A program made the translations under genes and the position numbers. From a bacterium (GTDB lineage: Bacteria > SZUA-79 > Acidulodesulfobacterales > Acidulodesulfobacteraceae), in contig DAHVNW010000009.1 in assembly GCA_027319095.1 (NCBI GenBank), forward strand, positions 1 to 52,664: a stretch of DNA of 52,664 bases. Direction: 5' to 3'. Position 1 is the first letter of the stretch; each line of letters opens with the position of its first letter. This document shows, piece after piece, positions 23,969 through 43,772 of the stretch. The notes under the pieces are model-generated. The model was not told the origin of the DNA. It was given only the letters and a program-made list of their open reading frames with translations, and did not search any database.

Positions 23969-24310
23969 ATGAAATTTAATTACGATATAGATTACATAAC
24001 AAAGATTACCAAATTAAGCAAAGAATCTATTTTTAAACTGCTTGATTATTTTAGCGGGCTTCCCCTGCAAGCTAAAATAGAAGTATTTTTCATAAGCAAA
24101 ATAATAGAGGAAGACGACGAATTTGCATTTCATCAACTTTATTTCGATAAAGACAGGTCTGCTGAATATGAATTCTCTTTATTTATTCTGGGCATCGAAA
24201 GAATATATTCCGTCGAACACAGGGAAAGCGAAGCGGAAGGCAAAAAGCTTTCTTCCTATAAACTTAATCTGATTTCAAAAATTAAAGAACTAAGGGCTTT
24301 GAATGAATGA
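23969..24310 (+). CDS. Hypothetical 113-residue protein upstream of dsrN
   Basis: A soluble, mostly helical, charged protein (KITKLSKESIFKLLDYFSGLP..., EDDEFAFHQLYFDKDRSAEYEF). I do not recognise a family. It begins 9 bases after the tRNA and its last 8 bases overlap the start of the CbiA-like gene, which points to translational coupling with it. No cysteines and no signal peptide. Given its place at the head of the dsr region it is worth noting, but no function can be read from it. Confidence 0.6.
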   Translation: MKFNYDIDYITKITKLSKESIFKLLDYFSGLPLQAKIEVFFISKIIEEDDEFAFHQLYFDKDRSAEYEFSLFILGIERIYSVEHRESEAEGKKLSSYKLNLISKIKELRALNE

Positions 24311-25829
24311 TGCATCCGGAATGGTTCTAGCCGATAAAAAAAAATCCTTCAGCATTAACCTTATTAACGGAATCTATATATCCGCCGCTAAAAGAAATTC
24401 AGGAAAAACTACAATTTCCATAGCAATATCCCGCATTTTAAAAAATAAAGGTTTGATTATCCAACCGTTTAAAAAGGGACCTGATTTTATCGACCCTATG
24501 TGGCTCAATATTGCTTCTGGTTCAAGAACGTATAATCTAGATTTCTATTTTATGTCGGATAATAAAATAAGAAATCATTTTATGACACATTCTTTGAATT
24601 CCGATATAAGCATAGTCGAGGGAAATCACGGATTGCACGATTCTTTCGATATATATGGAAAGTCGTCCAATGCCGAAATGGCAAAACTTTTAGGTCTTCC
24701 GGTAGTTTTAGTTATAGACGTGGGAGAGCTTAACAGGGGCGTCGTCCCATTGATATTAGGTTTTAAAGAATTCGACGGGGACGTAAATATAAAAGGGTTA
24801 ATCCTTAATAAAGTTCACAGCAAAAGACACGAAAAAAACTTAATAAAAGCAATTAAATATTACACCGATTTGAAAATTGTAGGCGCAATTCCGGGTAATT
24901 CGGAATTTTCCGTAAAACAGAGACATTTGGGTCTTTTTTCTACGTTGTCGTCGGAAGAAGCCGAAAGTCTCGTCGAAGGAATGGCCTCTAAGATTGCCGG
25001 ACATATAGATATGGAAAGTATTATAAAAATTTCTAAAATAGCGAATAAGGCGTATCCAGAAATAAGGAATCTTCGGACCATTATGTCCGGCATGATGCCC
25101 GACATACCTGCAAGAAAAAGCCTAAAAAAAAGAAGCGCCGGCTATACGGTCAAAATCGGCATAGCTTACGATAACGCTTTCAATTTTTATTATAACGAAA
25201 ATATAGAGGCTCTCGAAAATTTGGGATGCGAAATAGTTAAATTTTCGCCATTAAGCGACAAAAGTCTTCCCGATGTGGATGCATTATATATAGGAGGCGG
25301 TTTCCCCGAAATTTTCTCTAAGGGGCTTCAGGCAAACGCCGCCATTAGAACTGAAATAAAATGTAAAGTAGGGCAGGGGCTTCCCGTTTATGCCGAGTGC
25401 GGCGGACTTATGTACCTGTGCAAAAGCATTTATTACGAAAATAATTTTAACGAGATGGTCGGAGTAATCGAAGCCGACGTCAAATTGACGAAAAAGCCTA
25501 AAGGGCACGGCTATACAAAGTTTACGCCATATTCTTACGAAAAGGGCAGGGAAACTTTCTGGTTTAATAAAATAAAGTCGGTAAAAGGACATGAATTTCA
25601 TCATTCTTATTTAGAGATTTCTCCAAGAAGGTACGAACTTGTTTTTAAAATGAAAAAAGGCTACGGTGTGGACGGCGTTTCCGACGGCATAACATATAAA
25701 AATGTTTTGGCCGGATATACTCATATATATTCGCCCTCCTCACCTAACTGGTTTAAAAACTGGGTTGTTTTTATAAAGCAGTCAAAAAAAAGCGGACAAA
25801 AACAAAAAATATTTTATACTGAATTTTAA
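24303..25829 (+). CDS. dsrN: DsrN: CbiA-type glutamine amidotransferase (siroheme amidation)
   Basis: A 508-residue protein of the cobyrinic acid a,c-diamide synthase family. The N-terminal ATPase domain has AAKRNSGKTTISIAIS (P-loop near 28-38) and KKGPDFIDPMWL; the C-terminal glutaminase domain has YIGGGFPEIF and AECGGLMYL with the nucleophile C366, plus FHHSYLE later. In dsr clusters this family member, DsrN, amidates siroheme to the siroheme-amide cofactor of DsrAB. The gene lies just upstream of dsrA, and no other cobalamin genes are near, so DsrN is preferred over cobalamin CbiA. The dsrA promoter separates the two. Confidence 0.82.
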   Translation: MNDASGMVLADKKKSFSINLINGIYISAAKRNSGKTTISIAISRILKNKGLIIQPFKKGPDFIDPMWLNIASGSRTYNLDFYFMSDNKIRNHFMTHSLNSDISIVEGNHGLHDSFDIYGKSSNAEMAKLLGLPVVLVIDVGELNRGVVPLILGFKEFDGDVNIKGLILNKVHSKRHEKNLIKAIKYYTDLKIVGAIPGNSEFSVKQRHLGLFSTLSSEEAESLVEGMASKIAGHIDMESIIKISKIANKAYPEIRNLRTIMSGMMPDIPARKSLKKRSAGYTVKIGIAYDNAFNFYYNENIEALENLGCEIVKFSPLSDKSLPDVDALYIGGGFPEIFSKGLQANAAIRTEIKCKVGQGLPVYAECGGLMYLCKSIYYENNFNEMVGVIEADVKLTKKPKGHGYTKFTPYSYEKGRETFWFNKIKSVKGHEFHHSYLEISPRRYELVFKMKKGYGVDGVSDGITYKNVLAGYTHIYSPSSPNWFKNWVVFIKQSKKSGQKQKIFYTEF

Positions 25830-25932: not shown

Positions 25933-26062
25933 TAATAAATGCAACCTTAATTTAAAGTTTTAAATTTTTCCGGATACGGATTATATGCCCCTTGATTATT
26001 TCACGGTTAGACCATAATATGTGGGACGTTTTATATTTAAATTTATTTATAAAGGAGGATTT

Positions 26063-27271
26063 ATGAGCAAAAAACACAAAACGCCGCTTCTTGACGAGCT
26101 AAAGAAGGGAAAATGGCCAAGTTTTGTCAACGAAATAGAAAGAGCGGCGGAAAAAAGCGAGATGACCGATGACCTTTTGGGACAGGTCGAGCAGTCTTAC
26201 GAGGAAAAAGTAGTCCACTGGAAACATGGCGGGATGGTTGGCGTTAAAGGTTATGGTTCGGGTATTGTAGGAAGGTTTTCCGACCTGCCTGAAAAGTACC
26301 CGGGCATTAAGGAATTTCATACGGTTAGAATAAATCAACCCTCAGGTTTTTTTTATACCTCCGACGTTCTAAGGAGTATAGTAGATATAGGTGAAAAACA
26401 TGCCTCAAGTCTTTTTAACTTCCATGGTTCGACAGGTGACGTCCAGTTGCTTGGCGCAAAAACGGCAGAATTGGAAACCATATTTCAAGAATATACAAAG
26501 TTAGGGTTTGACCTTGGCGGAAGCGGTTCTGCGTTAAGAACGCCCTCATGCTGCGTCGGCAAGGCGAGATGCGAGTTTGCGAATTACGATGCCATGCATG
26601 CCTGTAACAGCATTACGCAGGCATTTCAGGACGAAATGCACAGGCCGATATTCAACTACAAGTTTAAATTCAAATTTTCGGCATGCGGAAACGATTGTAC
26701 CGCGTCGATAGCGAGAGCCGACCTGTCCGTCATAGGAACATGGAAAGACTCTATAAGAATAGACCAGGAAGCGGTTAAAGACTATGCAAAAAAATTTGAC
26801 CTGCATAAATATGTCACAGATAAATGTCCTACCAAATGTATGAGTTATAATGCCGAAGAAGGCCTTAAAATAGACGATTCTAATTGTTCGAAGTGCATGC
26901 ATTGCATAAATACTATGCCTAAAGCCCTGCGTCCCGGGACAAAGGGGGGAGCTACAATACTTATAGGGTCTAAAGCCCCGATGGTTTCAGGTCCGCGCCT
27001 TTCGATGGTTCTTGTGCCGTTTTACGATATAGAAGAAGATGCGAAGAACGATTATGAATGGTTTAAAGACCTTATATCAAAGATTTGGGAATTTTGGGAC
27101 GAGTACGGGGTTAACAGGGAAAGGATAGGGGAGTTAATCCAGAGGGTCGGCATAGGCAACTTTATCGAGTCGATAGGGCTAGAACCTCTTCCGGAAATGG
27201 TTGCAAGCCCAAGGGGAAATCCGTTTGTATTATACGAAGAATACGTGGAAGCGGGCGGAGAACAGGGCTAA
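26063..27271 (+). CDS. dsrA: Dissimilatory sulfite reductase alpha subunit
   Basis: A 402-residue DsrA. With DsrB it reduces sulfite by electrons through siroheme-[4Fe-4S] (or works in reverse in oxidisers). Cluster motifs: C164-x5-C170 (CVGKARC) and C208-x3-C212 (CGNDC), then the ferredoxin insert with CPTKC at 255-259 and C275-x2-C278-x2-C281. HGSTGDVQLLG and PSCCVGKARCEFANYD are standard DsrA. The ATG at 26063 is preferred because AAAGGAGG lies just before it; an in-frame ATG at 26021 lacks a site. Whether it is the reductive or oxidative type needs phylogeny; neighbouring dsrD favours reductive. Confidence 0.98.
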   Translation: MSKKHKTPLLDELKKGKWPSFVNEIERAAEKSEMTDDLLGQVEQSYEEKVVHWKHGGMVGVKGYGSGIVGRFSDLPEKYPGIKEFHTVRINQPSGFFYTSDVLRSIVDIGEKHASSLFNFHGSTGDVQLLGAKTAELETIFQEYTKLGFDLGGSGSALRTPSCCVGKARCEFANYDAMHACNSITQAFQDEMHRPIFNYKFKFKFSACGNDCTASIARADLSVIGTWKDSIRIDQEAVKDYAKKFDLHKYVTDKCPTKCMSYNAEEGLKIDDSNCSKCMHCINTMPKALRPGTKGGATILIGSKAPMVSGPRLSMVLVPFYDIEEDAKNDYEWFKDLISKIWEFWDEYGVNRERIGELIQRVGIGNFIESIGLEPLPEMVASPRGNPFVLYEEYVEAGGEQG

Positions 27272-27403: not shown

Positions 27404-28489
27404 ATGGCGGAGGTTTCAGGAGTAAAAAGAATAACGGATATCGGACCGCATGATTATAACGATTTCTTGCATCCCGTTATTAAGAAAAATTATGGAAAAT
27501 GGAAATATCACGAAATTTTGAGCCCAAGCCATATGGTTCATGTTTCGGAAGACGGCGACAAGATTTATACCGTCAGGGTTGGTTCCCCAAGGCTTGTCAG
27601 CAGCTCTTTTATTAAGGATTTATGCGATCTCGCCGATAAATACAGCGGCGGATACCTGAGGTTTACTACAAGGAATAACGTTGAGTTTTTACTTGATAAG
27701 GAGGAAAATATAAAGCCGCTTTTGGACGACGTCGGAAAATTGAACCTTCCTGCCGGCGGCATTGGAAACGTTGTGGCCAATATAGTCCACACGCAGGGAT
27801 GGGTGCATTGCCATACGGCTGCATCGGATGCGTCGGGCGTGGTTAAGTCCCTCATGGACGAGCTTTATGAATATTATGTTAACGCCCAGTTGCCCACAAA
27901 GGTCAGGATAGCTTTTGCATGCTGTCTTAATATGTGCGGTGCAGTCCATTGCTCGGATATAGCGGTACTTGGAATACATAGAAGACCGCCAAGGTTGATT
28001 CCAGATAGGATAGTCAATCTTTGTGAAATTCCAAGCACAATAGCATCTTGCCCAACCAACGTAATAAGGCCGGATACTTATAACGGCAAGCCCAGCGTAA
28101 AACTTATCGAAGAAGGATGCGTTTTCTGCGGCAACTGTTTTACGGTATGCCCCGGCATGCCTATAGCCGATCCGCTAAACGACGGCGTGTCGATTTGGGT
28201 TGGAGGCAAGGTGTCTAATGCCAGGAGCAAGCCTGCGTTTTCGAAACTTGCTGTTCCGTTTCTGGAAAACGATCCACCGCGCTGGCCAAAGGTCGTCGAG
28301 GCTGTTAAAACCATACTCGACGCATACAAAAAAGGCGCGCATAATGGGGAAAGGGTAGGCGAATGGATAGAAAGGATAGGCTGGCCAAAATTCTTTAAAG
28401 TTACCGGTTTCGAGTTTACAAAGTACCATATAGACGATTTCAGGCTTGGAGAGGCAACATTAAATTATTCCGCTCAGATTAGACAGTAA
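27404..28489 (+). CDS. dsrB: Dissimilatory sulfite reductase beta subunit
   Basis: A 361-residue DsrB, partner of DsrA and holder of the catalytic siroheme. Visible motifs: [17 protein letters not shown] around C136, [15 protein letters not shown] (C173, C174, C178, C183) and the ferredoxin insert [16 protein letters not shown] (C239, C242, C245, C249). GGAGG precedes the ATG. It is 132 bases after dsrA and ahead of dsrD, the usual dsrABD order. Length is standard. Confidence 0.98.
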
Positions 28490-28556: not shown

Positions 28557-28787
28557 ATGACTGACGAAACCAAGGTGAAGCTGGAAGAAGCCATTGTAAA
28601 TCTCATTAAAGAATATGCGAATAAAAAAAGATTTAAGCCGGGAGACGTGGTTAAAGAGATGGAAAGCAAGTTTTCGGCAAGCGGCGTTACGAAAGACGAC
28701 GTTAAAACCGCCATCAGGGACCTTACGGATTCCGGCCGTTTGATATACGGTTACGCAGGAGGAAGTTTTCTTGCCTTACCCGAATAA
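28557..28787 (+). CDS. dsrD: DsrD, activator of sulfite reductase
   Basis: A 76-residue winged-helix protein of the DsrD family, recognised by KLEEAIVNLIKEY, the central RFKPGDVVKEME and the end GRLIYGYAGGSFLALPE. DsrD is reported to stimulate DsrAB sulfite reduction and is typical of sulfate reducers, while classic sulfur oxidisers lack it. GGAGG lies before the ATG. It follows dsrB as usual. Its presence is the strongest single hint here for a reductive Dsr pathway. Confidence 0.95.
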   Translation: MTDETKVKLEEAIVNLIKEYANKKRFKPGDVVKEMESKFSASGVTKDDVKTAIRDLTDSGRLIYGYAGGSFLALPE

Positions 28788-28861: not shown

Positions 28862-30553
28862 ATGGCCGTAGAAATTAAAAAAATAAAAAGACCGATAGGA
28901 GGCAGGCAGTTCGGATCGTCAACCGTTGCCGAACAATCTCCCCTGCGCCCGAGTTATGTCGAAAAAAAGCCTCCCTGCATGGATAGTTGTCCTAACAGCG
29001 AAAAAATCAGGGAATATTTACAATATATTGCCCAGAGCGACGCATACGGCAGAAATATGGATGAATCGATTAAAGAGGGGTTTTACATTCTTACTGATAC
29101 GAACCCACTTCCTGCTGTAACGGGGCGGGTTTGTCCGCATCCTTGCGAAACATCCTGCAATAGGGTGGCGAAAGATAAATCTGTAGCGATAAATTCTGTA
29201 GAAATGTTTATCGGAGATTTTGGAATCGAGAAGAATTTGCCGTTAAAAAAACTTACCGGCGAAAAGAGGAAGGAGAGGATTGCCGTCATAGGCGGCGGAC
29301 CTGCGGGTTTAAGCTGCGCTTACCAGCTTGCAAGAAGGGGTTATGCCGTTACTATCTTCGAAAAGCTAGAAAAAGCCGGAGGCATGCTGCGTTATGGAAT
29401 ACCCCGTTTTCGCCTTCCCGGAGAAGTTCTTGATGCCGAAATTAACAGGATAAAGGATATGGGCGTCGAATTCAAATTCAATTCCGCCGTAGGGAAAGAC
29501 GGCCTGGCGCTGAAAGTACTAAAAAAAGAGTTCGATGCGGTTTTTGTCGGGATAGGTTCACATAATAACGTTCCCCTGGGTATAAACGAGTCAGGGATTT
29601 CAAACGTTTTTAGCGGCATCGAATTTTTGAGGCGCGTGAACAGCGGGGAAATGCCCGACCTTGGTTCCCACGTCGTAGTTGTCGGAGGAGGAGATTCCGC
29701 AATGGATTGCGCCAGAACCGCCCGCAGACTGCCTACGACCGAAAAGGTTACCGTTGCATACAGAAGGGGAAAGGAACAAATGCCTGCAAATCCTGAAGAA
29801 GTTAGCGCCGCCATAGAAGAAGGGATTAATTTCGAGTTTATGGCCGCTCCTCTTAGTATTGGCGAAAAGAAGGACGGGGTTCTGCCTGTCGCTTTTCAGA
29901 GGACAAAACTGGGCGAAAAGGATGCCTCGGGCAGGGCGCAGTTTATGATAGCCGAGGATGAACAACCGTTTACAGTCGATTGCACATCGCTTGTTGCCTC
30001 ACTCGGTCAAAAACCTGATCTTTCCGGTTTTGAAGATATTTGCAAGAACTTAAAAAAGGGGTGTCTTAATGTCGACGATAAATGCTTAATATCTGAGGAA
30101 GATAATGTTTTTGCCGGCGGGGACGTGGTTGGATTCTGGCTTTTAACCCAGGCAATAGGTTCTGGAAATGCCGCCGCTTTTTCAATACACGAAAAATTTA
30201 GCGGCGAACCGGCGCCTGTCGATAAAAGGCAGGTCATAGGCTATAAAGATATGCATCTGGAGTTTTACAATGAGTCTGCAAGGCAAGAAAGGCGCAATAG
30301 GCAAATTATCTCGGTTAAGGGCGATTTTCAGCCTGTCGTTTACGGATTATCCCGCGACGAAGCTGTGTCCGAAGCGAAAAGATGCATGAGTTGCGGCTTG
30401 TGTTACGATTGCGGTAACTGTTTTATGTATTGTTCCAAGGGTTGTGTGAAAATGCTCGAAAAGGGCAAACATTACGAGTTTCATTTAGAAACGTGCAACG
30501 GCTGCATGAAGTGTTTCGAAAGCTGTCCTTGCGGTTATATATCAAACAGTTGA
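28862..30553 (+). CDS. dsrL: DsrL: NAD(P)H-acceptor oxidoreductase with ferredoxin domain
   Basis: A 563-residue iron-sulfur flavoprotein related to glutamate synthase small subunit. The N-terminal cluster region has C39-MDS-C43 and GRVCPHPCETSCNR; the FAD site is IAVIGGGPAGLSCAYQLARR; the nucleotide site is VVVVGGGDSAMDCARTA; the C-terminal extension has RCMSCGLCYDCGNCFMYC and TCNGCMKCFESCPCGY, two cluster-binding sets as in DsrL. DsrL couples DsrAB to the nicotinamide pool in sulfur oxidisers; DsrL-2 types occur in some reducers or disproportionators. Here it sits between dsrD and dsrC. A stand-alone GltD-like protein is less likely because of this position and the C-terminal domain. Confidence 0.88.
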   Translation: MAVEIKKIKRPIGGRQFGSSTVAEQSPLRPSYVEKKPPCMDSCPNSEKIREYLQYIAQSDAYGRNMDESIKEGFYILTDTNPLPAVTGRVCPHPCETSCNRVAKDKSVAINSVEMFIGDFGIEKNLPLKKLTGEKRKERIAVIGGGPAGLSCAYQLARRGYAVTIFEKLEKAGGMLRYGIPRFRLPGEVLDAEINRIKDMGVEFKFNSAVGKDGLALKVLKKEFDAVFVGIGSHNNVPLGINESGISNVFSGIEFLRRVNSGEMPDLGSHVVVVGGGDSAMDCARTARRLPTTEKVTVAYRRGKEQMPANPEEVSAAIEEGINFEFMAAPLSIGEKKDGVLPVAFQRTKLGEKDASGRAQFMIAEDEQPFTVDCTSLVASLGQKPDLSGFEDICKNLKKGCLNVDDKCLISEEDNVFAGGDVVGFWLLTQAIGSGNAAAFSIHEKFSGEPAPVDKRQVIGYKDMHLEFYNESARQERRNRQIISVKGDFQPVVYGLSRDEAVSEAKRCMSCGLCYDCGNCFMYCSKGCVKMLEKGKHYEFHLETCNGCMKCFESCPCGYISNS

Positions 30554-30646: not shown

Positions 30647-30988
30647 ATGCCGTCTTTTGACTTTAATGGTAAGACAATAGAAACTGACGATGAAGGTTAC
30701 CTGCAAAACCTTGACGATTGGAACAAGGACATAGCCGATTACCTTGCCAAAAGCGAAGGGGTTGCGCTAACTGAAAAACACTGGGAATTAATTAACTGGA
30801 TCAGGGATTATTTTGCAAAGTTTCAGGTTGCTCCGGCAATCAAGTCCCTTGCAAAAGAAGTCGGAAAGCTCGAAAATATCGAAGACAAAAAGGAAGCTAA
30901 TAAATTTCTTTACGAACTTTTTCCGGAAGGTCCAGCAAAGCAGCTTGCCAAGATAGCCGGCCTTCCAAAGCCGACCGGCTGCGTGTAA
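30647..30988 (+). CDS. dsrC: DsrC-family protein lacking the second conserved cysteine
   Basis: A 113-residue DsrC/TusE-family protein. The start (FDFNGKTIETDDEGYLQNLDDW), the W-x-L-I-x-W-I-R-D-Y-F helix-turn-helix region and the C-terminal arm GLPKPTGCV are present. The penultimate C112 (CysA) is the only cysteine. The position ten residues before it, Cys in true DsrC (CysB), is Ala: the arm reads KQLAKIAGLPKPTGCV. TusE of E. coli also has only the penultimate cysteine. DsrC forms a trisulfide between its two cysteines during sulfite reduction, which this protein could not do. It nonetheless lies inside the dsr cluster after dsrL. GGAGG precedes the ATG. Confidence 0.93.
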   Translation: MPSFDFNGKTIETDDEGYLQNLDDWNKDIADYLAKSEGVALTEKHWELINWIRDYFAKFQVAPAIKSLAKEVGKLENIEDKKEANKFLYELFPEGPAKQLAKIAGLPKPTGCV

Positions 30989-31080: not shown

Positions 31081-31842
31081 ATGGGATATCTTAATTTAAC
31101 CACCGTAATATTTCTTTTTATTACTTACGCTGTTGGTTTAATCTTTTTAGTCGGCGTAATTTTAAGGATATATCAATATGCAACTACGCCCCAGCCGGTC
31201 AAAATACCGCTTACACCGGCTCCGCTCACAAGTGGCGGGGCGCTGGCACGTGTCCTTGGAGAAGTTTTTTTCTTCAAAAGCCTTTTTAAATCCAATAAGC
31301 CGACTTGGGTGTTCGGATACCTTTTTCATATTTCGTTCTTTCTTTTAATAGCTATGCATTTTGCGCGGCATTTTGTCTATACGAATCCTCTCCCTTCCTG
31401 GTACGGGATTTTTGTGAACGCAGGAATAGTTTTAGGTATTATTATGGTGCTTTCGCTTTTTTTGCTCCTTTTAAGAAGGATTATAGTAGAAAGAGTTAAA
31501 TTTATATCGTTATTTCAGGATTATTTAATTTTAATCCTTTTAATGCTTATAGGTCTGGCAGGATTATCCTTGAATTATGCCCTGTCTCCGGCAGCGCTGA
31601 CTGCGGTGGATAACCGGCTCGATCCATACATGAATGGGCTTTTAACGTTTCAGTTTACTAATATTCCCTCAAATCCGCTGTTTCTTATACATTATACCCT
31701 TGTGATGCTGCTGATAGCATATATTCCATTCAGCAAAATTATGCACTTTGTCGGGATATTTTTTTCCCCCACGAGAATTATGGCAGATAATCCCGAAGAA
31801 GAAAGGTATTATCGTCCGGAAGCAAAAGATTTGTCTATATAA
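31081..31842 (+). CDS. dsrM: DsrM, membrane cytochrome b subunit
   Basis: A 253-residue membrane protein of the NarI/DsrM type with about five to six hydrophobic segments and histidines suited to b-type heme (HISFFLLIAMHFARHF, HYTLVMLLIAYIPFSKIMHFVG). DsrM oxidises quinol (or the reverse) and passes electrons to DsrK. It is short compared with many DsrM of about 330 residues but similar to others. GGAGGGGAG lies directly before the ATG. It is followed by dsrK; no dsrJ, dsrO or dsrP is in the window, so a minimal DsrMK complex is indicated. Confidence 0.9.
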   Translation: MGYLNLTTVIFLFITYAVGLIFLVGVILRIYQYATTPQPVKIPLTPAPLTSGGALARVLGEVFFFKSLFKSNKPTWVFGYLFHISFFLLIAMHFARHFVYTNPLPSWYGIFVNAGIVLGIIMVLSLFLLLLRRIIVERVKFISLFQDYLILILLMLIGLAGLSLNYALSPAALTAVDNRLDPYMNGLLTFQFTNIPSNPLFLIHYTLVMLLIAYIPFSKIMHFVGIFFSPTRIMADNPEEERYYRPEAKDLSI

Positions 31843-31902
31843 ATAACTTTTATAACTTTATTAATATCTTTATTAATATTTAAAACGAGAAGGGGTTTGA
31901 AT

Positions 31903-33390
31903 ATGGCCAAAACGAAAACGAAATACAAGGTTCCAGTACTGGACGGTAATATTTCCATTCCTAAAATTATTCCGGGAGCGACCTCGTATGAACGTATGAT
32001 AGGAGCTCAAAAAGACGATATGGAAGCGCTCGGTTTTCCGGCAAATCTTCAGGACGGCTGGAAGCAAAAGGCTATCGGGGTTTTTAAGGAAATACTTGAC
32101 CATAATAAGGCCTTAAGGGATTATATGGATATATGCGTTCGTTGCGGCGCATGCACCGATAAATGCCAGTTTTTTCTAGGAACGGCAGACCCCAATAATA
32201 TGCCCGTCCAAAGACAAGAACTCATGAGAAAGGTTTATAGATATTATTTTACGCCCTCCGGTTTTTTTAAAAGTCTTTCAAATGCACAGGAATTAACAGA
32301 AGACGTGTTAAAAGAATGGTACACGTATTTTTGGCAGTGTTCGGAGTGTAGAAGATGTTCCCTTTATTGTCCCTACGGCATAGACACTGCCGAAATAACC
32401 ATGGCGGCAAGACAAATTATGGATTCTATAGGCCTCGGACAAAAATATACGACCGAAATTATCCATAAAGTTTTTGCAAAGGGGAACAATATCGGAATAC
32501 CGCCCGCTGCATTAAGAAATACTCTTGACGATTTAGAAGAAGAAATAAAAGATGAAAATGGAAAGGACGTTAAAATACCAATGGATGCTGAAGGTGCGGA
32601 AGTTTTGCTTGTTCCGCCTTCGGCAGACTTTTTTGCTATGCCCCATATGGAATCTTTAAAGGGATATGCGAAAGTCTTTTATAAAGCCGGAATAAGTTAT
32701 ACCATTTCTTCATACGCTTCCGAAGCCGCAAATTTCGGCAAGTTTATAGGAAGCTACAAAAATACTAAAGAAATAAACAAAAGAATATGGGATGAGGCTA
32801 GAAGGCTTAAAGTAAAAAGGGTTATAATAGGGGAATGCGGCCATGCATGGAGGGCGGCTTATATGTACTCTAATACCATGAACGGCCCTTTCGATTTTCT
32901 CGACGGCAAATATAAGCAGCCTGCCCATATATGCGATTTTACCCTTGGATTAGTCAAGGACGGAGCAATAAAGCTCGACCCATCCGCAAATGACGATAAA
33001 ATTGTGACTTATCACGATTCTTGCAACGTTGCGAGGGCTTCGAGGATGGGAGATTTTCCCGGCGGTCAATTTGTTATTCCGAGGGAACTTATTAAAGCGG
33101 CGGCTAATCATTTTGTAGAATTAAGAGAAGGCACCACAAGGGAAAATACTTATTGTTGCGGGGGAGGAGGAGGACTTCTTACGGAAGAAGTTATGAACAT
33201 AAGAATAGCCGGGTCTATGCCGAGAATGCAAACGGTTAAGGAAGCTGTCGATAACCATAAGGTAAACTTTTATGCGCTTATATGCGCAATATGCAAGACC
33301 CAGTTTTCGGCTATGTTCCCCATTTACGGATTCGATGCCGAAATGGTCGGGGGCATTCATCAATTAGTAAGCAACGCTATTATAATGTAA
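31903..33390 (+). CDS. dsrK: DsrK, HdrD-like iron-sulfur subunit
   Basis: A cytoplasm-facing partner of DsrM, about 495 residues. The ferredoxin part has CVRCGACTDKCQFF and CSECRRCSLYCPYGID; the C-terminal part has two CCG-type regions, including HDSCNVARASRMG and NTYCCGGGGGLLTEE, which hold the noncubane-type cluster that in HdrD-like proteins reduces disulfides. DsrK is thought to act on the DsrC trisulfide. The ATG at 31903 is chosen because AGAAGGGG lies 7 bases before it; a TTG two codons earlier is the alternative. Its expected substrate DsrC is, in this window, the single-cysteine version. Confidence 0.95.
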   Translation: MAKTKTKYKVPVLDGNISIPKIIPGATSYERMIGAQKDDMEALGFPANLQDGWKQKAIGVFKEILDHNKALRDYMDICVRCGACTDKCQFFLGTADPNNMPVQRQELMRKVYRYYFTPSGFFKSLSNAQELTEDVLKEWYTYFWQCSECRRCSLYCPYGIDTAEITMAARQIMDSIGLGQKYTTEIIHKVFAKGNNIGIPPAALRNTLDDLEEEIKDENGKDVKIPMDAEGAEVLLVPPSADFFAMPHMESLKGYAKVFYKAGISYTISSYASEAANFGKFIGSYKNTKEINKRIWDEARRLKVKRVIIGECGHAWRAAYMYSNTMNGPFDFLDGKYKQPAHICDFTLGLVKDGAIKLDPSANDDKIVTYHDSCNVARASRMGDFPGGQFVIPRELIKAAANHFVELREGTTRENTYCCGGGGGLLTEEVMNIRIAGSMPRMQTVKEAVDNHKVNFYALICAICKTQFSAMFPIYGFDAEMVGGIHQLVSNAIIM

Positions 33391-33518: not shown

Positions 33519-33869
33519 ATGAAATTAGGTGTTCTTGTCAAAGAAGGACCTTATATGCATCAGGCCATAGATACCGCGTATAATTTTATAGTTGCGGCAA
33601 TGGAAGAAGGGCATGAAATTACCAGCGTATTTTTCTATAACGACGGAGTTTATAACAGATGCTCCACTCTTGAGCCGCCGAGGGACGAAAGAAATATTAT
33701 GAAACTGCTTACCGAATTAGAACTCAAAGGCGTCCGGTTAATAGTCTGCGTTGCGGCAGGCAAGAGAAGAGGGATAGTAAATCAGACGGTATGCAAGGTA
33801 GAAGAAATTTCCGGCCTTGGTCAGCTTCTCGAACTATGTATAACGTCTGATAGAATGATAACATTCTAA
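33519..33869 (+). CDS. dsrE: DsrE
   Basis: A 116-residue cytoplasmic protein. It matches DsrE/TusD: KEGPYMHQAIDTAYNFIVAAMEEGHEI, FFYNDGVYN, and IVCVAAGKRRGI with C77 at the place of the sulfur-binding Cys78 of Allochromatium DsrE, ending SDRMITF. DsrEFH form a heterohexamer that passes sulfane sulfur to DsrC in sulfur oxidisers. dsrF and dsrH follow in the usual order. GGAGG lies before the ATG. Confidence 0.93.
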   Translation: MKLGVLVKEGPYMHQAIDTAYNFIVAAMEEGHEITSVFFYNDGVYNRCSTLEPPRDERNIMKLLTELELKGVRLIVCVAAGKRRGIVNQTVCKVEEISGLGQLLELCITSDRMITF

Positions 33870-33975
33870 CAGGCGCCAGAATTCAATTAGGAAACCTTAT
33901 AATAATAAAAAAATAAAATTAAAAAATAGAGTGACCCGGTTAATCGGGTATATCAATAAAAAAGGGGTAAGTAAA

Positions 33976-34350
33976 ATGTCGGAACAGAAAAAAACCAAGG
34001 TAATGTTTGTTTGCAGGACCGCTCCTTACGGAACTATTTACGAACAGGAGGCAATCGAAGCAATGATTATGTTTGGAGCATACGAACAGGACATAAGCGT
34101 TAGTTTTGTCGGGGACGGGGTGTTTTCGCTAAAAAAAGGACAGGACACTTCTTTAGTGGGAAAGAAAAATTTTTCGATGACATACCCTATATTAATCGAC
34201 GATTTTGAAATTTCGCATATTTATGTAGAAAAGGAATCGCTCGAAGAAAGAGGATTAAAAGAAGACGACCTTGCCACCGAAGTCGAAATAATAGACAGAA
34301 ATACATTAAAACAAAAAATGGACGAAATGAAAGCCATTCTGCCATTTTAA
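33976..34350 (+). CDS. dsrF: DsrF
   Basis: About 124 residues, DsrF/TusC type: KVMFVCRTAPYGTIYEQEAIEAMIMFGAYE, then VSFVGDGVFSLKKGQD, then a central SHIYVEKESLEERGL and an ending of the form IIDRNTLKQKMDEM..ILPF. The ATG at 33976 follows AAAGGGG and fits the family start; an in-frame ATG at 33931 would add 15 unrelated residues. It is a structural member of the DsrEFH sulfur-transfer hexamer, between dsrE and dsrH. Confidence 0.92.
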   Translation: MSEQKKTKVMFVCRTAPYGTIYEQEAIEAMIMFGAYEQDISVSFVGDGVFSLKKGQDTSLVGKKNFSMTYPILIDDFEISHIYVEKESLEERGLKEDDLATEVEIIDRNTLKQKMDEMKAILPF

Positions 34351-34392: not shown

Positions 34393-34692
34393 ATGCTACA
34401 TATAATTAAGAAATCGCCTTACGAGTCTTCCGCGTTAAGCGATGCCGCAAACTATATAAGCCAAAACGATATATTACTATTGACCGAAGACGGAATATAC
34501 GCGGCAAAAAAAGGCGGAAAATTAGAAGGATTTTTGAAAGGCATCATTCAAAAAAATCAGGTTTATTGTCTTCTGGCAGATGTTAAAGCCAGAGGGATAC
34601 AGGAGAATGAAATAATAGAAAATGTTAAAATTATAGATTATAAAGGTTTTGTCCAAAAAGTAACGGAACACAATCCTATGACATGGTCTTAA
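34393..34692 (+). CDS. dsrH: DsrH
   Basis: A 99-residue DsrH/TusB-type protein: MLHIIKKSPYESSALSDA at the start, ILLLTEDGIYAA, then VYCLLADVKARGI with its only cysteine C59, and IIDYKGFVQKVTEHNPMTWS at the end. It completes the DsrEFH trio. AAAGGAGG lies before the ATG. Nothing truncated. About 260 bases of non-coding sequence follow before sat. Confidence 0.92.
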   Translation: MLHIIKKSPYESSALSDAANYISQNDILLLTEDGIYAAKKGGKLEGFLKGIIQKNQVYCLLADVKARGIQENEIIENVKIIDYKGFVQKVTEHNPMTWS

Positions 34693-34954: not shown

Positions 34955-36178
34955 ATGGCTTTAGTAAATCCTCACGGAAAAGAAAAAAAATTAAAACCGC
35001 TGCTCCTTTCCGGAAGCGAATTAGACAAAGCGAAAGAATATGCTAAGACCCTTAAAAAAATTCCCATGACTTCGAGGGAAACATCGGATTTAATAATGAT
35101 GGGCATAGGGGCTTTTACGCCGCTCGAAGGTTTTATGGGCAAAAACGACTGGAGAAGCACAGTAGATAAATTTACTATGGAAGACGGAACGTTTTGGCCT
35201 ATTCCTATTACGCTTTCGGCTGCAAAGGAAATAGCGGACGAAATTAAAACGGGAGAGGAGGCTGCGCTCGTAGATTTTGAAACGTCGGAAATTATGGGCA
35301 TAATTAATATATCCGAAAAATATACTATCGACAAGGCCTACGAATGCGAAAAAATTTTTAAGACGACCGACATGGAACACCCCGGCGTTCAAAAAGTTAC
35401 GGCGCAGGGCGATATTAACATTGCCGGAAAAGTCAAGGTTTTAAGCGAAGGTTCTTATCCAGTAGATTTCAAAGAGATATATATGCGCCCCTCCGAAACA
35501 AGAAAAATATTCGAAGAAAAAGGCTGGAATACGGTTGCGGCATTCCAGACTAGAAATCCCATGCACCGTTCGCACGAATATTTATCAAAGGTTGCCATAG
35601 AAACCACCGACGGAGTATTAATACACCAGCTTGTAGGTAAGTTAAAACCGGGAGACATTCCGGCAAACGTCAGGGCGGTCGCCATTAACACCTTAATAGA
35701 CAAATACTTTGTAAAGAACACTATAGTTCAGGCAGGTTATCCAATGGAAATGAGATATGCAGGACCGAGAGAAGCGCTTTTGCACGCCGTTTTTAGGCAG
35801 AACTATGGATGTTCCCATCTTATCGTAGGAAGGGACCATGCGGGCGTAGGCGATTATTACGGGCCATTCGACGCGCATAAAATATTCGACGAAATTCCAA
35901 AAAATGCCCTCGAATTAAAGCCGTTGAAAATGGACTGGACTTTTTACTGCCATAAGTGCGACGGAATGGCATCTACGAGAACTTGTCCCCACACGAAAGA
36001 AGACAGGCTAATATTAAGCGGAACCATGCTAAGAAAGCTTTTATCCGAGGGACAGGAAGTCCCCGACCATTTTTCGAGGCCGGAAGTTCTTTCAATATTA
36101 AAAGATTATTACGCTTCCCTCTCCAAAGACGCTAAAGTCGAGGTTAAACTCCATAAAGCGGCAAAAGGAGAAATTTGA
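34955..36178 (+). CDS. sat: Sulfate adenylyltransferase (ATP sulfurylase)
   Basis: A 407-residue homo-oligomeric Sat that makes adenosine 5'-phosphosulfate and pyrophosphate from sulfate and ATP, or the reverse. Motifs: [17 protein letters not shown] (QxRNPxHRxH), [26 protein letters not shown] and a zinc-type cysteine cluster [17 protein letters not shown]. The length is standard for the bacterial/archaeal type. GGAGG precedes the ATG. It heads the sat-aprBA-qmoABC-hppA run; the pyrophosphate formed would feed HppA. Confidence 0.98.
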
Positions 36179-36278
36179 TTTTAAATTTATTTCAATGAAT
36201 TAATTTATATTATCCGCCGTTTAACGGATAATATATCGTGTTATATAAAATAAAATATTAACTTAAGGAGGTATGTAA

Positions 36279-36713
36279 ATGCCAAGTTTTGTGATTACGG
36301 AAAAATGCGACGGTTGCAAGGGAAGGGATAAAACTGCATGTCAGTATATCTGTCCCAACGACCTTATGGTGTTAAACAAGGACATCATGAAGGCTTATAA
36401 TCAGGAGCCAGACCAATGCTGGGAATGTTACAACTGCGTTAAAATTTGTCCTCAGTCTGCCATAGAAGTAAGAGCCTATCAGGACTTTGCGCCGCTCGGC
36501 TCGTCAGTTATTCCTATGAGGGGTTCGGATTCGATTATGTGGACGGTAAAATTTAGAAACGGAAAAATTAAGAGATTTAAGTTTCCGATAAGAACTACGC
36601 CTGAAGGCGGAATAGACCCGTATCAGGGAATACCGGAAGAAAACAAGGGCGATTTAAAAAGCAATCTTTTATGCGACGAAATAGGCAAAGAGCTTGCCGC
36701 ACCTAAAAAATAA
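36279..36713 (+). CDS. aprB: Adenylylsulfate reductase beta subunit
   Basis: A 144-residue iron-sulfur subunit. Two [4Fe-4S] sites are visible: CDGCKGRDKTACQYICP and CWECYNCVKICPQSAIEV. They carry electrons from QmoABC to the AprA flavin. A C-terminal tail (about 70-144) wraps AprA in known structures. AAGGAGG is directly upstream of the ATG. It is in the usual aprB-aprA order. Confidence 0.97.
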   Translation: MPSFVITEKCDGCKGRDKTACQYICPNDLMVLNKDIMKAYNQEPDQCWECYNCVKICPQSAIEVRAYQDFAPLGSSVIPMRGSDSIMWTVKFRNGKIKRFKFPIRTTPEGGIDPYQGIPEENKGDLKSNLLCDEIGKELAAPKK

Positions 36714-36789
36714 AGTGAAAATAATGCATAGAAGCAAACTTTATTTTTTCTAATTTAAAATAATTTAAAAATTGCGAGGATAAATTGTT

Positions 36790-38715
36790 ATGGCTGAAAT
36801 GAATGGTTCGATGACAAGCGCTGACGTTTTAAATAATTACGCTATCGAAGAAATACAAACGGATATTTTAATTGTCGGCGGCGGTATGGTAGGATGCGGA
36901 GCTGCATTCGAAATAAAAAAGTGGGCTCCTAAAGATATGAAAATAACTTTGGTAGAAAAGGCTGCTATAGAAAGAAGCGGTGCTGTCGCGATGGGTTTAT
37001 CGGCTATCAATACTTACTTAGGAGACAATACGCCTGAAGATTACGTTAAACACGTAGCTAACGACCTGATGGGAATTATAAGGGAAGATTTAGTTTATGA
37101 TGTAGGCAGGCACGTCGATAAGACAGTTGAGCATTTCGAAAAATTAGGACTTCCCGTATTTAAAGAAGAAGAAGAAGATACCAGGTCCATTGCCGAAGGA
37201 GGCAGGCCTCTTAGGGCAGGCAGGTGGCAGATAATGATACACGGAGAATCTTATAAAGTATTAGTTGCAGAAGCTGCAAGAAAAGCTCTCGGCGAAGAAA
37301 ACATAAAAGAAAGGGTTTTCGTAACCGAGCTTCTTATGGACGAAAAGCACGAAAACAGAGTTGCCGGCGCTATCGGATTCAGCTTAAGGGAAGCAAAGAT
37401 TTATATATTTAAAGCTAAAGCCGTTATTATGGCATGCGGAGGAACCGTTAACGTTTTCAGGCCGAGATCGCAGGCGGAAGGAATGGGGAGAACATGGTAT
37501 GCGATTTGGAACGCCGGTTCGACATATGCCATGGGATATCAGGCAGGAGCCGAAATGACCACTATGGAAAACAGGTTCGTTCCAAACAGGTTTAAAGACG
37601 GCTATGGCCCTGTCGGCGCATGGTTTACGCTTTTCAAATCCAGAGTTTTAAATGCGCATGGCGAAGACTATATGCAGAAATGGGGACATATGCTTCAAGA
37701 TTATGCTCCATACGGATTGGCTAAAGTTCCGGCAACCTGCTTGTGGAACCACGTTATGCTTAAAGATTGGATGGAAGGAAACGGCCCGTTTTATATGAAT
37801 ACGTCCGGAGCTATGAAGCAGTTATTTGAAACCCTTCCGGAAAAGAGAAAAAAATCGCTAGAAACCGATGCATGGGAAGATTTTTTAGATATGACCGTAG
37901 CTCAGGCCGGATTATGGGCGGCAATGGATATAGATCCTCAAGAAACAAATTCAGAAGTTATGCCCACCGAGCCTTATTTTCTCGGTTCTCATGCCGGAGC
38001 TTGCGGAATGTGGGTTTCAGGACCTGACGATATATCTCCAAAAGAATATCAGTGGGGTTATAACCGTATGACTACCGTAAACGGTCTTTTCACCGGCGGC
38101 GACGGCGTCGGAGCTTCCGGACATAAGTTCTCTTCAGGTTCTTACACCGAAGGAAGATTGGCGGCTAAATCGGCGGTTAGATTCGTGCTTGACGATTCCG
38201 GTTACACTCCTACTGTTCATACGGAAAATAAAGTTCTTGCTGAAAAAATTTACGGACCTATGATTACGTTTGAAAAGTTTAAAGATTATTCTACCGAACC
38301 GAACGTAAATCCGAATTATATAAAACCGAGACTTTATCTATTCAGGTTAAACAAACTCATGGACGAATATGTCGCCGGAACCTCCACTTTCTACAAGACA
38401 AGCGAGGCTAGTCTTTTAAGGGGGTTAGACCTGTTAAACAGGCTTAAGGAAGATGCTTCCAAGCTTGCCGCGTCAAACCTGCACGAGCTTATGAGAGCAT
38501 GGGAAAATTATCACAGGTCCATCGTCGGAGAACTTCATTTAAGACACGTATTATTCAGGGAGGAAACAAGGTATCCGGGTTTCTATTACAGAACCGACCA
38601 TCCGAAACTCGACGAACAGAACTGGAAGGTTTTCGTAAATTCAAAGTTAAACAAGTCTACCGGACAACCGGACGTGTTTAAAAGACCGTATATAGAATTA
38701 GTTCCTAAAAACTAA
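36790..38715 (+). CDS. aprA: Adenylylsulfate reductase alpha subunit
   Basis: A 641-residue FAD subunit that interconverts adenosine phosphosulfate with sulfite plus AMP. ILIVGGGMVGCGAAFEIKKW is the FAD dinucleotide motif; RSGAVAMGLSAINTYLG, TTMENRFVPNRFKDGYGPVG and GGDGVGASGHKFSSGSYTEGRL are typical AprA stretches. The length fits. Codons here look slightly different from the flanks (many GCT and GGA), but there is no sign of recent transfer. Followed by a strong terminator, which separates it from qmoA. Confidence 0.98.
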   Translation: MAEMNGSMTSADVLNNYAIEEIQTDILIVGGGMVGCGAAFEIKKWAPKDMKITLVEKAAIERSGAVAMGLSAINTYLGDNTPEDYVKHVANDLMGIIREDLVYDVGRHVDKTVEHFEKLGLPVFKEEEEDTRSIAEGGRPLRAGRWQIMIHGESYKVLVAEAARKALGEENIKERVFVTELLMDEKHENRVAGAIGFSLREAKIYIFKAKAVIMACGGTVNVFRPRSQAEGMGRTWYAIWNAGSTYAMGYQAGAEMTTMENRFVPNRFKDGYGPVGAWFTLFKSRVLNAHGEDYMQKWGHMLQDYAPYGLAKVPATCLWNHVMLKDWMEGNGPFYMNTSGAMKQLFETLPEKRKKSLETDAWEDFLDMTVAQAGLWAAMDIDPQETNSEVMPTEPYFLGSHAGACGMWVSGPDDISPKEYQWGYNRMTTVNGLFTGGDGVGASGHKFSSGSYTEGRLAAKSAVRFVLDDSGYTPTVHTENKVLAEKIYGPMITFEKFKDYSTEPNVNPNYIKPRLYLFRLNKLMDEYVAGTSTFYKTSEASLLRGLDLLNRLKEDASKLAASNLHELMRAWENYHRSIVGELHLRHVLFREETRYPGFYYRTDHPKLDEQNWKVFVNSKLNKSTGQPDVFKRPYIELVPKN

Positions 38716-38761
38716 GACCATATATAGTTTTTTTGGAGTCGATGCCCGCATTATTTATTGA

Positions 38762-38792
38762 CCCCCTCCCCTATTTACGGGGAGGGGGTTTT
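38762..38792 (+). terminator. Rho-independent terminator after aprA
   Basis: CCCCCTCCCC (38762-38771) pairs perfectly with GGGGAGGGGG (38779-38788) around a 7-base loop, followed by TTTT. Confidence 0.85.
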
Positions 38793-38854
38793 AATATATA
38801 TTTTTGGGTTAATCTTATTTATTGTTTTTTATAATTACAAAAATGAAATAAGTT

Positions 38855-40165
38855 ATGGGGGTTTTAAAATTGAACGATGCAAATAATGGAAATCCCGTCC
38901 TTATAGTCGGAGGAGGCCATAGCGGCGTTTCAGCCGCCCTGGAAATTACCGAAGCCGTCGATAAAAAGGTTTATATAGTAGAAAAAAAATCTTATATAGG
39001 CGGAAGAGTTTTGCAGATGTATAAATATTTTCCAAAACTTTGTCCGCCTTTTTGCGGTTTTGAAATAAATACCAGGAGAATAAAATCTTCCGGCTCCGGC
39101 AATATTAAGTTTTTAGTTTCTTCGATAGTCGAGGAAATTACCGGAGAAAAGGATGGAACGGGATATAAAGTTAAAATCAGACAAAAGCCTCAATATATAA
39201 ACGATAACTGTACCGTCTGCGGAGAATGCGCCAAAGTCTGTCCCGAAGACAGGCCTAACGATTTTAACTATAATATGGATACCACAAAATCAATATTTTT
39301 ACCTGCCTTATCGAGCTTTCCGTTAAAATATTCAGTAGATGCCGATTACTGCAAGTTTTCCGCATGCAAGAAATGCGAGGAGGCTTGCAAGTATAACGCC
39401 ATAAATCTTAATGCCAAGGAAAATATCGTGGAAATGAAGGTTTCGGACATTATCTTTGCTACCGGCTGGAAGCCTTATAGCGTAGAAAAATTGGAAAACT
39501 TAGGGTTTGGGAAATTTAAAAACGTTATTACTAACGTAATGATGGAAAGACTTGCCGCAGGTAACGGTCCAACCGCAGGCAAAATTTTGAGGCCGTCCGA
39601 CAACAAGGAAGTGACTAACGTTGCGTTTATTCAATGTGCAGGCTCCAGAAACGAAAATCATCTGCCTTACTGTTCGGCTATATGCTGTATGGCTTCTTTA
39701 AAACAGGCTCTATATTTGCGCGAAAAAAACACGGCATCTTCCCCTACTATTTTTTATATAGATTTAAGGACGCCGGGAAGATACGAAAATTTTTTAAACA
39801 AAGCCGAAAGCGACAAAAATATTAAATTTAACAAAGGCATAGTCGGTAAAATATCGGAAGACCGTAATACAGGCGACCTTTTGCTGGACGTCGAAGATAT
39901 GATTTCAGGCAAAAAAATTAAATTTAGGACGGAAATGGTCGTTCTTGCCGCCGGAATGTATCCAAATATTAAAGACGACATGAAAGATATAAAAATTAAC
40001 GAAGACGTAAAAATAGACATAGACGAAAACGGATTTATATTTAACGAAAACTTTGACGGCGGTATTTTTTCCGCGGGAGTTGCAAAATTCCCATTAGACG
40101 TACATATGTCCGGACAATCTGCAACTTCCGCCGCCTTATCGGTAATTCAGCATAACGCTAAATAA
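38855..40165 (+). CDS. qmoA: QmoA, HdrA-like flavoprotein
   Basis: A 436-residue subunit of the quinone-interacting membrane-bound oxidoreductase, which links the quinone pool to AprBA. VLIVGGGHSGVSAALEI is the FAD motif, LCPPFCGFEINTRRI follows, and cluster motifs CTVCGECAKVCPED and CKKCEEACKYNAINL are present; CAGSRNENHLPYCSAICC is the HdrA-type stretch. The ATG at 38855 lacks a clear site; the TTG at 38870 has a G run 8 bases before it and could be the real start, as qmoC also begins with TTG. qmoB follows after 42 bases. Confidence 0.95.
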   Translation: MGVLKLNDANNGNPVLIVGGGHSGVSAALEITEAVDKKVYIVEKKSYIGGRVLQMYKYFPKLCPPFCGFEINTRRIKSSGSGNIKFLVSSIVEEITGEKDGTGYKVKIRQKPQYINDNCTVCGECAKVCPEDRPNDFNYNMDTTKSIFLPALSSFPLKYSVDADYCKFSACKKCEEACKYNAINLNAKENIVEMKVSDIIFATGWKPYSVEKLENLGFGKFKNVITNVMMERLAAGNGPTAGKILRPSDNKEVTNVAFIQCAGSRNENHLPYCSAICCMASLKQALYLREKNTASSPTIFYIDLRTPGRYENFLNKAESDKNIKFNKGIVGKISEDRNTGDLLLDVEDMISGKKIKFRTEMVVLAAGMYPNIKDDMKDIKINEDVKIDIDENGFIFNENFDGGIFSAGVAKFPLDVHMSGQSATSAALSVIQHNAK

Positions 40166-40207
40166 TAAACAAAGGAAACGAAAAGCCATATTCAAAGAGG
40201 AGTTAAA

Positions 40208-42538: not shown

Positions 42539-42581
42539 AGAAAGGCAAACAAGAAACAGTCGTCCTATAAAGGAGGTTATT

Positions 42582-43772
42582 TTGGAAAAAGCAAAAATAA
42601 AGACCGACAATGATTTGATAGGATATATAAAAGAAGTAGGCGAAAGTAATTTTAAGAAATGTTTTCAGTGCGGAACCTGTTCCGCCGTTTGTCCGTTATC
42701 GACCGAAGACAGGCCTTTTCCAAGAAAAGAAATGATTTGGACGGGCTGGGGATTAAAAGAAAAGCTTGCGTCCGACCTTGACCCGTGGCTTTGCTATTAC
42801 TGCGGAGAATGTTCGAAGAATTGTCCCAGAAAAGCCGAACCCGGCGAATTAATGATGTCCCTCAGGCGTTTTTTAATAAGCGCGTATGACTGGACGGGAA
42901 TATCTAAAATTTTATATAAATTTAAATATGCCGAATATATAGCAATATTAATCGTCGCACTTGGGGTTTTAATCGAATGGGCTGCGGTTTTCGGATTGTA
43001 TCCCGCGGCAGGCGCTTCTTTGGGACAGGCGGTATCCCCCGATAAAATAGATTACTTTTTTGACTGGCCGATTACGGTATTTCTCGGCGTAATGTTGACG
43101 TCGTTTATTTATAATATGTTCAGGAAAACCGTTTTGAGCGGAGGCGGCGTTAAAATTCCTTTAAAAGTATACTTTACCGAAGCATGGTCGCTCGTTTTTA
43201 ATTTTTTTACGCAATACAGGTATTCCAAATGCGACGACTCCGAGGAAACCGCTTCTAAGAAATTAGCATCCGGAAAATATAATTTTTGGCTGACCCATCT
43301 GCTTCTTATGATTAGCTATGTAGTATTATTCGCCGGCATCGTATTCTTCTTAGGCTGGTTTCAGGCGGAAAACAGCCTTCCTTATCTGCATATAATATTG
43401 TTCGATTATTTTGCAAGCATAGGACTTATGTTCGGCACGGTATATTTTATGATTAAAAGGCTTACTAAAAAAATAGAAAGAAGCAAATTTTCGCATCATA
43501 CCGATTGGATGTTCGTAATCCTACTATTTTTAACTGGACTTAGCGGAATAATACTTCGTGCGTCAATTGTATATCATTTTGCAGTTTCTACTATATTTTA
43601 CATATATCTTATACATCTTATGATTTTATTCCCTATGCTTGTAATAGAAGTTCCGTTTTCAAAATGGTCTCATTTAGCATACAGGCCCGTTGCAATTTAT
43701 TTTGCCAATTTAAAGGAAAAAGCCAAAAGCCTTAATCTTGGCAATAGCGAAAACGCCGAAATTAGAAATTAA
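42582..43772 (+). CDS. qmoC: QmoC, membrane iron-sulfur cytochrome b subunit
   Basis: About 396 residues. The N-terminal HdrC-like part has CFQCGTCSAVCPLS and CYYCGECSKNCPRKAEP; the C-terminal part has about six membrane helices of the NarI/b-type cytochrome kind (HLLLMISYVVLFAGIVFF, HHTDWMFVILLFLTG). It exchanges electrons with quinones. The TTG at 42582 is chosen because AAAGGAGG lies 5-8 bases upstream; the in-frame ATG at 42510 would overlap qmoB by 29 bases and lacks a site. Confidence 0.95.
   Translation: MEKAKIKTDNDLIGYIKEVGESNFKKCFQCGTCSAVCPLSTEDRPFPRKEMIWTGWGLKEKLASDLDPWLCYYCGECSKNCPRKAEPGELMMSLRRFLISAYDWTGISKILYKFKYAEYIAILIVALGVLIEWAAVFGLYPAAGASLGQAVSPDKIDYFFDWPITVFLGVMLTSFIYNMFRKTVLSGGGVKIPLKVYFTEAWSLVFNFFTQYRYSKCDDSEETASKKLASGKYNFWLTHLLLMISYVVLFAGIVFFLGWFQAENSLPYLHIILFDYFASIGLMFGTVYFMIKRLTKKIERSKFSHHTDWMFVILLFLTGLSGIILRASIVYHFAVSTIFYIYLIHLMILFPMLVIEVPFSKWSHLAYRPVAIYFANLKEKAKSLNLGNSENAEIRN

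Follow-up and report, generated by a model that had tools for sequence, protein, structure and literature searches.

Within the stretch of DNA analysed here (the window, 52 664 nucleotides), a dsr operon encodes a DsrC of 113 amino acids (dsrC, 30647–30988, + strand) whose sole cysteine is the penultimate Cys112 (CysA; codon TGC, 30980–30982, + strand), the position at which CysB would be expected being occupied by Ala101 (codon GCC, 30947–30949, + strand). On balance, we lean towards regarding it as a DsrC of the dissimilatory type, whose CysB was lost a single time, in a common operon source, and which works with CysA alone via a persulfide.

Sequence and fold of DsrC

The protein was assigned from the translation of its open reading frame, profile searches, a tree, and an AlphaFold model. 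The translation of 30647–30988 (+) ends in ...FPEGPAKQLAKIAGLPKPTGCV*, and the C-terminal arm, as given in the full account, reads GPAKQLAKIAGLPKPTGCV. Ala101 was placed by alignment with the DsrC proteins of A. vinosum, A. fulgidus, D. vulgaris, and P. aerophilum; in the D. vulgaris numbering, CysB is presumably Cys93. In A. vinosum DsrC it is Cys100 (PMC3397948). The loss of CysB claimed in the original prediction was borne out by this alignment; the alanine had been recognised correctly, but not its distance of "ten residues", since the C-X10-C arrangement puts CysB 11 positions before Cys112.

The window DsrC is matched by the Pfam family DsrC (PF04358, E 3e-41) and, over the full length of the profile, by TIGR03342. 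Its AlphaFold model has a mean pLDDT of 89.6, with low values for the last three residues, and structure comparison at E <0.001 returned solely members of the DsrC family (DsrC of A. vinosum, A. fulgidus, Desulfovibrio, Desulfomicrobium, and P. aerophilum, together with one family member from A. baumannii). Profile, fold, and penultimate CysA place the protein in the DsrC/TusE/DsvC superfamily. As is the case for canonical DsrC, it is encoded together with dsrAB and dsrMK and co-occurs with DsrAB; the canonical CysB 11 positions before CysA is missing. Since the protein holds a single cysteine, an intramolecular CysA-S-CysB trisulfide is chemically impossible.

Gene content and order of the dsr operon

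All genes of the operon are located on the + strand. At its head stands a conserved protein of 113 amino acids (orf113, 23969–24310), which has no Pfam or NCBIfam match, is conserved in the dsr operons of the phylum, and directly precedes and overlaps dsrN (24303–25829; siroheme amidase, CbiA-like; named from a reading of the sequence and its conserved place in the operon rather than from a library scan). These are followed by dsrA (26021–27271, likely true start ATG at 26063; TIGR02064, 505 bits), dsrB (27404–28489; TIGR02066, 475 bits), and dsrD (28557–28787, 76 aa). The last of these had been passed over in the original prediction; it is named by its position and by its likeness to a DsrD-like ORF found at the same place elsewhere (L154), an ORF which itself gave no NCBIfam match. 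Upstream of dsrC lies dsrL (28862–30553; NF009410), of type 2 according to the classification in PMC7596348, and downstream are dsrM (31081–31842; NF038037, 108 bits, under the cut-off) and dsrK (31897–33390; NF045796, 528 bits), the latter with all Fe/S and CCG cysteines. The operon continues with dsrE (33519–33869; TIGR03012; active Cys77 kept), dsrF (33931–34350, likely true start ATG at 33976; TIGR03010), dsrH (34393–34692; TIGR03011; Ala in place of the Cys20 equivalent), and sat, aprBA, and qmoABC (34955–43772; named from the sequence and from their conserved order rather than from a library scan). Together with DsrAB, the presence of DsrD (by likeness and position) and of Sat-Apr-Qmo characterises a reductive Dsr system. 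DsrM is short (253 aa) and, at 108 bits against an NCBIfam cut-off of 300, could be missed by automatic annotation.

The order in the phylum is orf113-dsrN-dsrA-dsrB-dsrD-dsrL-dsrC-dsrM-dsrK-dsrE-dsrF-dsrH-sat-aprBA-qmoABC. In the Desulfurella-like genomes described below it is dsrA-dsrB-dsrD-dsrL-dsrC-dsrM-dsrK, followed by two DsrE-like genes and dsrN. The placement of dsrC directly between dsrL and dsrMK was thereby confirmed, and the view that it is no distant paralogue held as well, the order dsrL-dsrC-dsrM being kept throughout the phylum and in the Desulfurella-like genomes.

Some further features of these operons were recorded. The NAD(P)H motif of DsrL is YRR in the window (28862–30553), as in part of the phylum (L004, L005, L006, L009), and YNK in the second dsr cluster of the same genome (L003, 4035–5747); YNK was described as the sole exception among DsrL-2 proteins, in Ca. 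Acidulodesulfobacterium and Acididesulfobacter (PMC7596348). This second cluster (G000:C108; L003, 1–10741) is of a different type (orf113-dsrN-AB-L-C-M-K-E-F), shares approximately 92% DNA identity with the cluster of a congeneric genome (L013/L214), and may be either a genuine second operon or a contaminant introduced by binning. In most of the phylum, DsrH has no counterpart of A. vinosum Cys20, a feature that it shares with TusB, and the DsrEFH–DsrC relay has the cysteine pattern of TusBCD–TusE with descent from Dsr proteins. In A. vinosum, Cys20 of DsrH is needed in vivo and is dispensable for sulfur transfer in vitro (PMC3397948).

Fixation of the exchange within the phylum

The window belongs to the candidate phylum SZUA-79 (Ca. 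Acidulodesulfobacterota), a group of acidophilic sulfur bacteria without cultured members. DsrC was found in 23 of its 30 genomes, and every readable C-terminus contains QLA, that is, Ala at the CysB position. The gene dsrA occurs in 23 genomes, 22 of which also have DsrC; the remaining one (G015) is represented by a contig (L205) that stops within dsrB, and conversely one genome with DsrC and without dsrA (G024) is 59% complete. Three alanine codons are used at the CysB site (GCC 9, GCT 8, GCA 6; 23 sequences). Purifying selection is indicated by the dN/dS of the phylum dsrC genes, which has a pairwise median of 0.058.

A second, two-cysteine DsrC elsewhere, offered in the original prediction as one way out, did not materialise: the genome searched is 97% complete and contains one other DsrC (on the 10.7-kb contig L003, within the second dsr cluster), which is 81% identical and likewise carries Ala, and a two-cysteine DsrC was absent from all 30 genomes of the phylum. 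From these data, the loss of CysB is judged to be fixed across the phylum. The window is a single contig of a metagenome-assembled genome, so that a sequencing or assembly error at the GCC codon had to be considered; given that every other genome of the phylum with DsrC has Ala, that three different alanine codons are in use, and that the sister clade has Val, the chance of such an error is negligible. A canonical cysteine in relatives, which would likewise have spoken against the loss, was found nowhere in the phylum.

CysB outside the phylum

The sample comprised 291 genomes, most of them single representatives of families that lie outside the phylum. There, dsrA was found in 22 sampled genomes, 21 of which have DsrC, and CysB is kept in 20 of these 21. 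The exception (G262) has QLV in a DsrC encoded between dsrL and dsrM; the same operon with the same Val was found in three further genomes of its order (G291, G292, G305). G262, G291, and G292 each have a second DsrC of a TusE-like sort (KKAAKIAG). In 395 genomes from the phylum that includes G051, the DsrC of which groups with that of D. vulgaris, a DNA pattern for the tail QL(A/V)...KPTGC had no match, as against 190 genomes with the two-cysteine tail; the QL(A/V) tail was also absent from eight genomes of the phylum of G258.

By their match to published genomes, G262 and its relatives appear to be Desulfurella-like: they share with Desulfurella and Hippea, the dsr gene content of which is described in PMC5317093, two DsrC copies, dsrAB and dsrMK in the absence of JOP, and kinship to a family that lacks dsr. 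Desulfurella respires thiosulfate through Dsr (PMC10591310, PMC10504309). In G262 (L154, 1044–7820), dsrL, dsrK, and dsrN are broken by frameshifts or deletion, the reading frames of dsrA, dsrB, dsrC, dsrD, and dsrM being uninterrupted, which fits the report of D. acetivorans without a working set (PMC5317093); G291 and G292, unlike G262, have intact dsrL and dsrK.

Descent of the single-cysteine DsrC

The DsrC tree, from which the two columns of the CysB region were left out, joins the SZUA-79 and Desulfurella-like operon DsrC proteins in one clade (support 100/100), separate both from the gammaproteobacterial TusE (100/99) and from another TusE-like clade (100/98). SZUA-79 and the Desulfurella-like genomes likewise pair in the DsrK tree (SH-aLRT 99), and the pair nests in a larger group, in which CysB is kept by all the remaining members and DsrJ is present in most of them. 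Leu100, directly before the CysB site, is a second change common to both lineages. The simplest reading of the sequences is that there was one loss of CysB, in the source of dsr operons that the two lineages would have in common by transfer or descent. A grouping of Ca. Acidulodesulfobacterales with Desulfurellales in DsrC, DsrN, and DsrMK trees, both carrying dsrMK only, is given in PMC10504309.

The single penultimate cysteine is also that of TusE, and DsrC might be a housekeeping TusE for tRNA 2-thiouridine that stands in the operon by chance. This is highly improbable: six phylum genomes have neither dsrA nor DsrC, and all six keep MnmA, so that DsrC co-occurs with DsrAB and not with MnmA. 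It neither branches with TusE nor occurs independently of DsrAB in the service of MnmA; its score against the TusE equivalog NF008562 is 110.7 bits, the cut-off being 191. The tail GLPKPTGCV is of the dissimilatory type, that of TusE being GLPKP(V/A)KC(I/L). Capture of a TusE into the operon was ruled out by tree and tail. A phage origin, or the presence of phage copies, was also rejected, a scan of viral contigs having returned no relative of the window DsrC.

The original prediction had further considered a TusE-like acceptor for DsrEFH. Such a role is chemically plausible, and DsrE keeps its active cysteine; but the protein does not descend from TusE, its occurrence follows that of DsrAB and not that of tRNA thiolation, and the Desulfurella-like genomes show the same trait with no dsrEFH in their operon.

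Partner proteins

In DsrAB, DsrL, and DsrK, the cysteines serving as ligands of siroheme and Fe/S centres have been kept. Searched by sequence against the PDB, DsrK gave a distant match only. A complete DsrMKJOP complex was not found: DsrJ had no match in 27 genomes (23 of the phylum and four Desulfurella-like), and for DsrP the matches were weak and far under the cut-off, which agrees with PMC10504309. CysB is kept in each of the nine tested genomes in which DsrJ was matched. Loss of DsrJ accompanies the loss of CysB but does not force it, because two genomes without a DsrJ match (G141, G278) have kept CysB; as the sole cause it was rejected on the same grounds. DsrL also occurs beside two-cysteine DsrC (L139, L141, L142, L147, L151), and therefore does not force the loss of CysB either.

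Proposed mechanism and alternatives

In the canonical cycle, DsrAB takes two electrons, CysA and CysB give the other two, and DsrMK supplies four for the trisulfide (PMC10229431, PMC4690157). For the CysB-less operons, the most likely course is that DsrAB, fed by DsrL, would load CysA as a persulfide that DsrMK would reduce. DsrL would supply electrons from NAD(P)H to DsrAB, which would reduce sulfite by four electrons and pass zero-valent sulfur to CysA; the non-cubane Fe/S centre of DsrK would then reduce the CysA persulfide with two electrons, thereby releasing sulfide and free Cys112. As this model needs, dsrL adjoins dsrC in every complete CysB-less operon. With four electrons entering at DsrAB and two at DsrMK, electron supply would shift away from membrane quinols and towards NAD(P)H. 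In SZUA-79, Cys112 might also be loadable by DsrE, which could let the carrier operate oxidatively. The Cys100Ser variant of A. vinosum DsrC was still loaded with sulfur from DsrEFH at Cys111 in vitro (PMC3397948); in the accessible open-licence literature, no measurement of the activity of DsrAB with a CysB variant was found. The evidence favours the suggestion in the original prediction that the pathway differs. Extended to the whole phylum of predicted sulfate reducers and to the Desulfurella-like genomes, it is tentatively proposed that sulfite respiration may run via a DsrC persulfide in place of a trisulfide, with a four-electron NAD(P)H step at DsrAB via DsrL, DsrMK as a persulfide reductase, and a changed electron split and energy yield.

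Other mechanisms would also accommodate a DsrC with a single cysteine. DsrAB and DsrL might together reduce sulfite with six electrons from NAD(P)H and need no DsrC for release, DsrC then being only a TusE-like carrier that receives sulfane sulfur from DsrEFH, or from DsrE-like proteins, and delivers it to DsrAB or to another acceptor. We consider this unlikely, though it has several points in its favour: DsrC and DsrH of SZUA-79 both show the cysteine pattern of TusE and TusB, DsrE-like genes come after dsrK in the Desulfurella-like operon, and DsrAB without DsrC releases some sulfide (PMC10229431). However, DsrAB alone gives mainly thionates (PMC4690157), and the intact DsrMK encoded beside dsrC in all complete operons would have no clear role without a DsrC product to reduce. 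It is rather improbable that the trisulfide persists in another form, as an intermolecular CysA-S-CysA bridge between two DsrC molecules or as a mixed trisulfide with a small thiol, reduced by DsrMK as usual. The canonical electron count would be kept and the C-terminal arm appears flexible in the model, but CysA would lie deep in the DsrAB channel when taking up sulfur, where a second arm is hard to place.

A cysteine of a partner protein might, finally, serve as CysB in trans. The candidate was DsrK C466, which every CysB-less operon encodes, as against 26% of the two-cysteine set; it is also found, however, in the oxidative-type DsrK of CysB-bearing genomes (L138, L141, L142, L144, L146), and is taken as a mark of that type of DsrK, not of CysB loss. 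No other cysteine was gained in both CysB-less lineages in DsrA, B, D, L, M, or K. A compensating cysteine in the operon partners was accordingly rejected, none being specific to the CysB-less clade, and a CysB acting in trans is regarded as very unlikely.

Significance and comparison with known systems

In the literature, CysB is described as strictly conserved in organisms with DsrAB. The lost cysteine is not mentioned in the accessible part of PMC10504309, and a search limited to open-licence literature, in part accessible, returned no report of CysB loss in the phylum or in Desulfurella. A natural loss throughout a clade would mean that the trisulfide is not universally needed, and the CysB-less clade offers a natural experiment on the role of CysB, the loss of which may change the share of electrons delivered via the membrane and via NAD(P)H. 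Desulfurella has been cultured, and the predicted persulfide could be tested at the bench. Screens that demand a CX10C motif for functional DsrC would miss this clade.

The window DsrC resembles canonical DsrC (A. vinosum, D. vulgaris, A. fulgidus) in its fold, C-terminal arm, CysA within a TGCV tail, and place with dsrAB, dsrL, and dsrMK; it differs in that CysB is replaced by Ala (SZUA-79) or Val (Desulfurella-like), preceded by Leu, and in that no intramolecular trisulfide can form. With TusE it shares the single penultimate cysteine and a non-cysteine residue at the CysB position, but it belongs to another clade, has another tail and other genomic partners, and tracks DsrAB, not MnmA. DsrC of Pyrobaculum, unlike that of the window, keeps both cysteines. 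The single-cysteine DsrC/TusE-like genes of phages (PMC8190135) are similar in having the second cysteine only; those are auxiliary viral copies, whereas the window type is the host's only kind of DsrC and is located inside the dsr operon. A likeness in gene content exists to the minimal, DsrMK-only Dsr system set out in PMC10504309, which consists of DsrABCMK without JOP.
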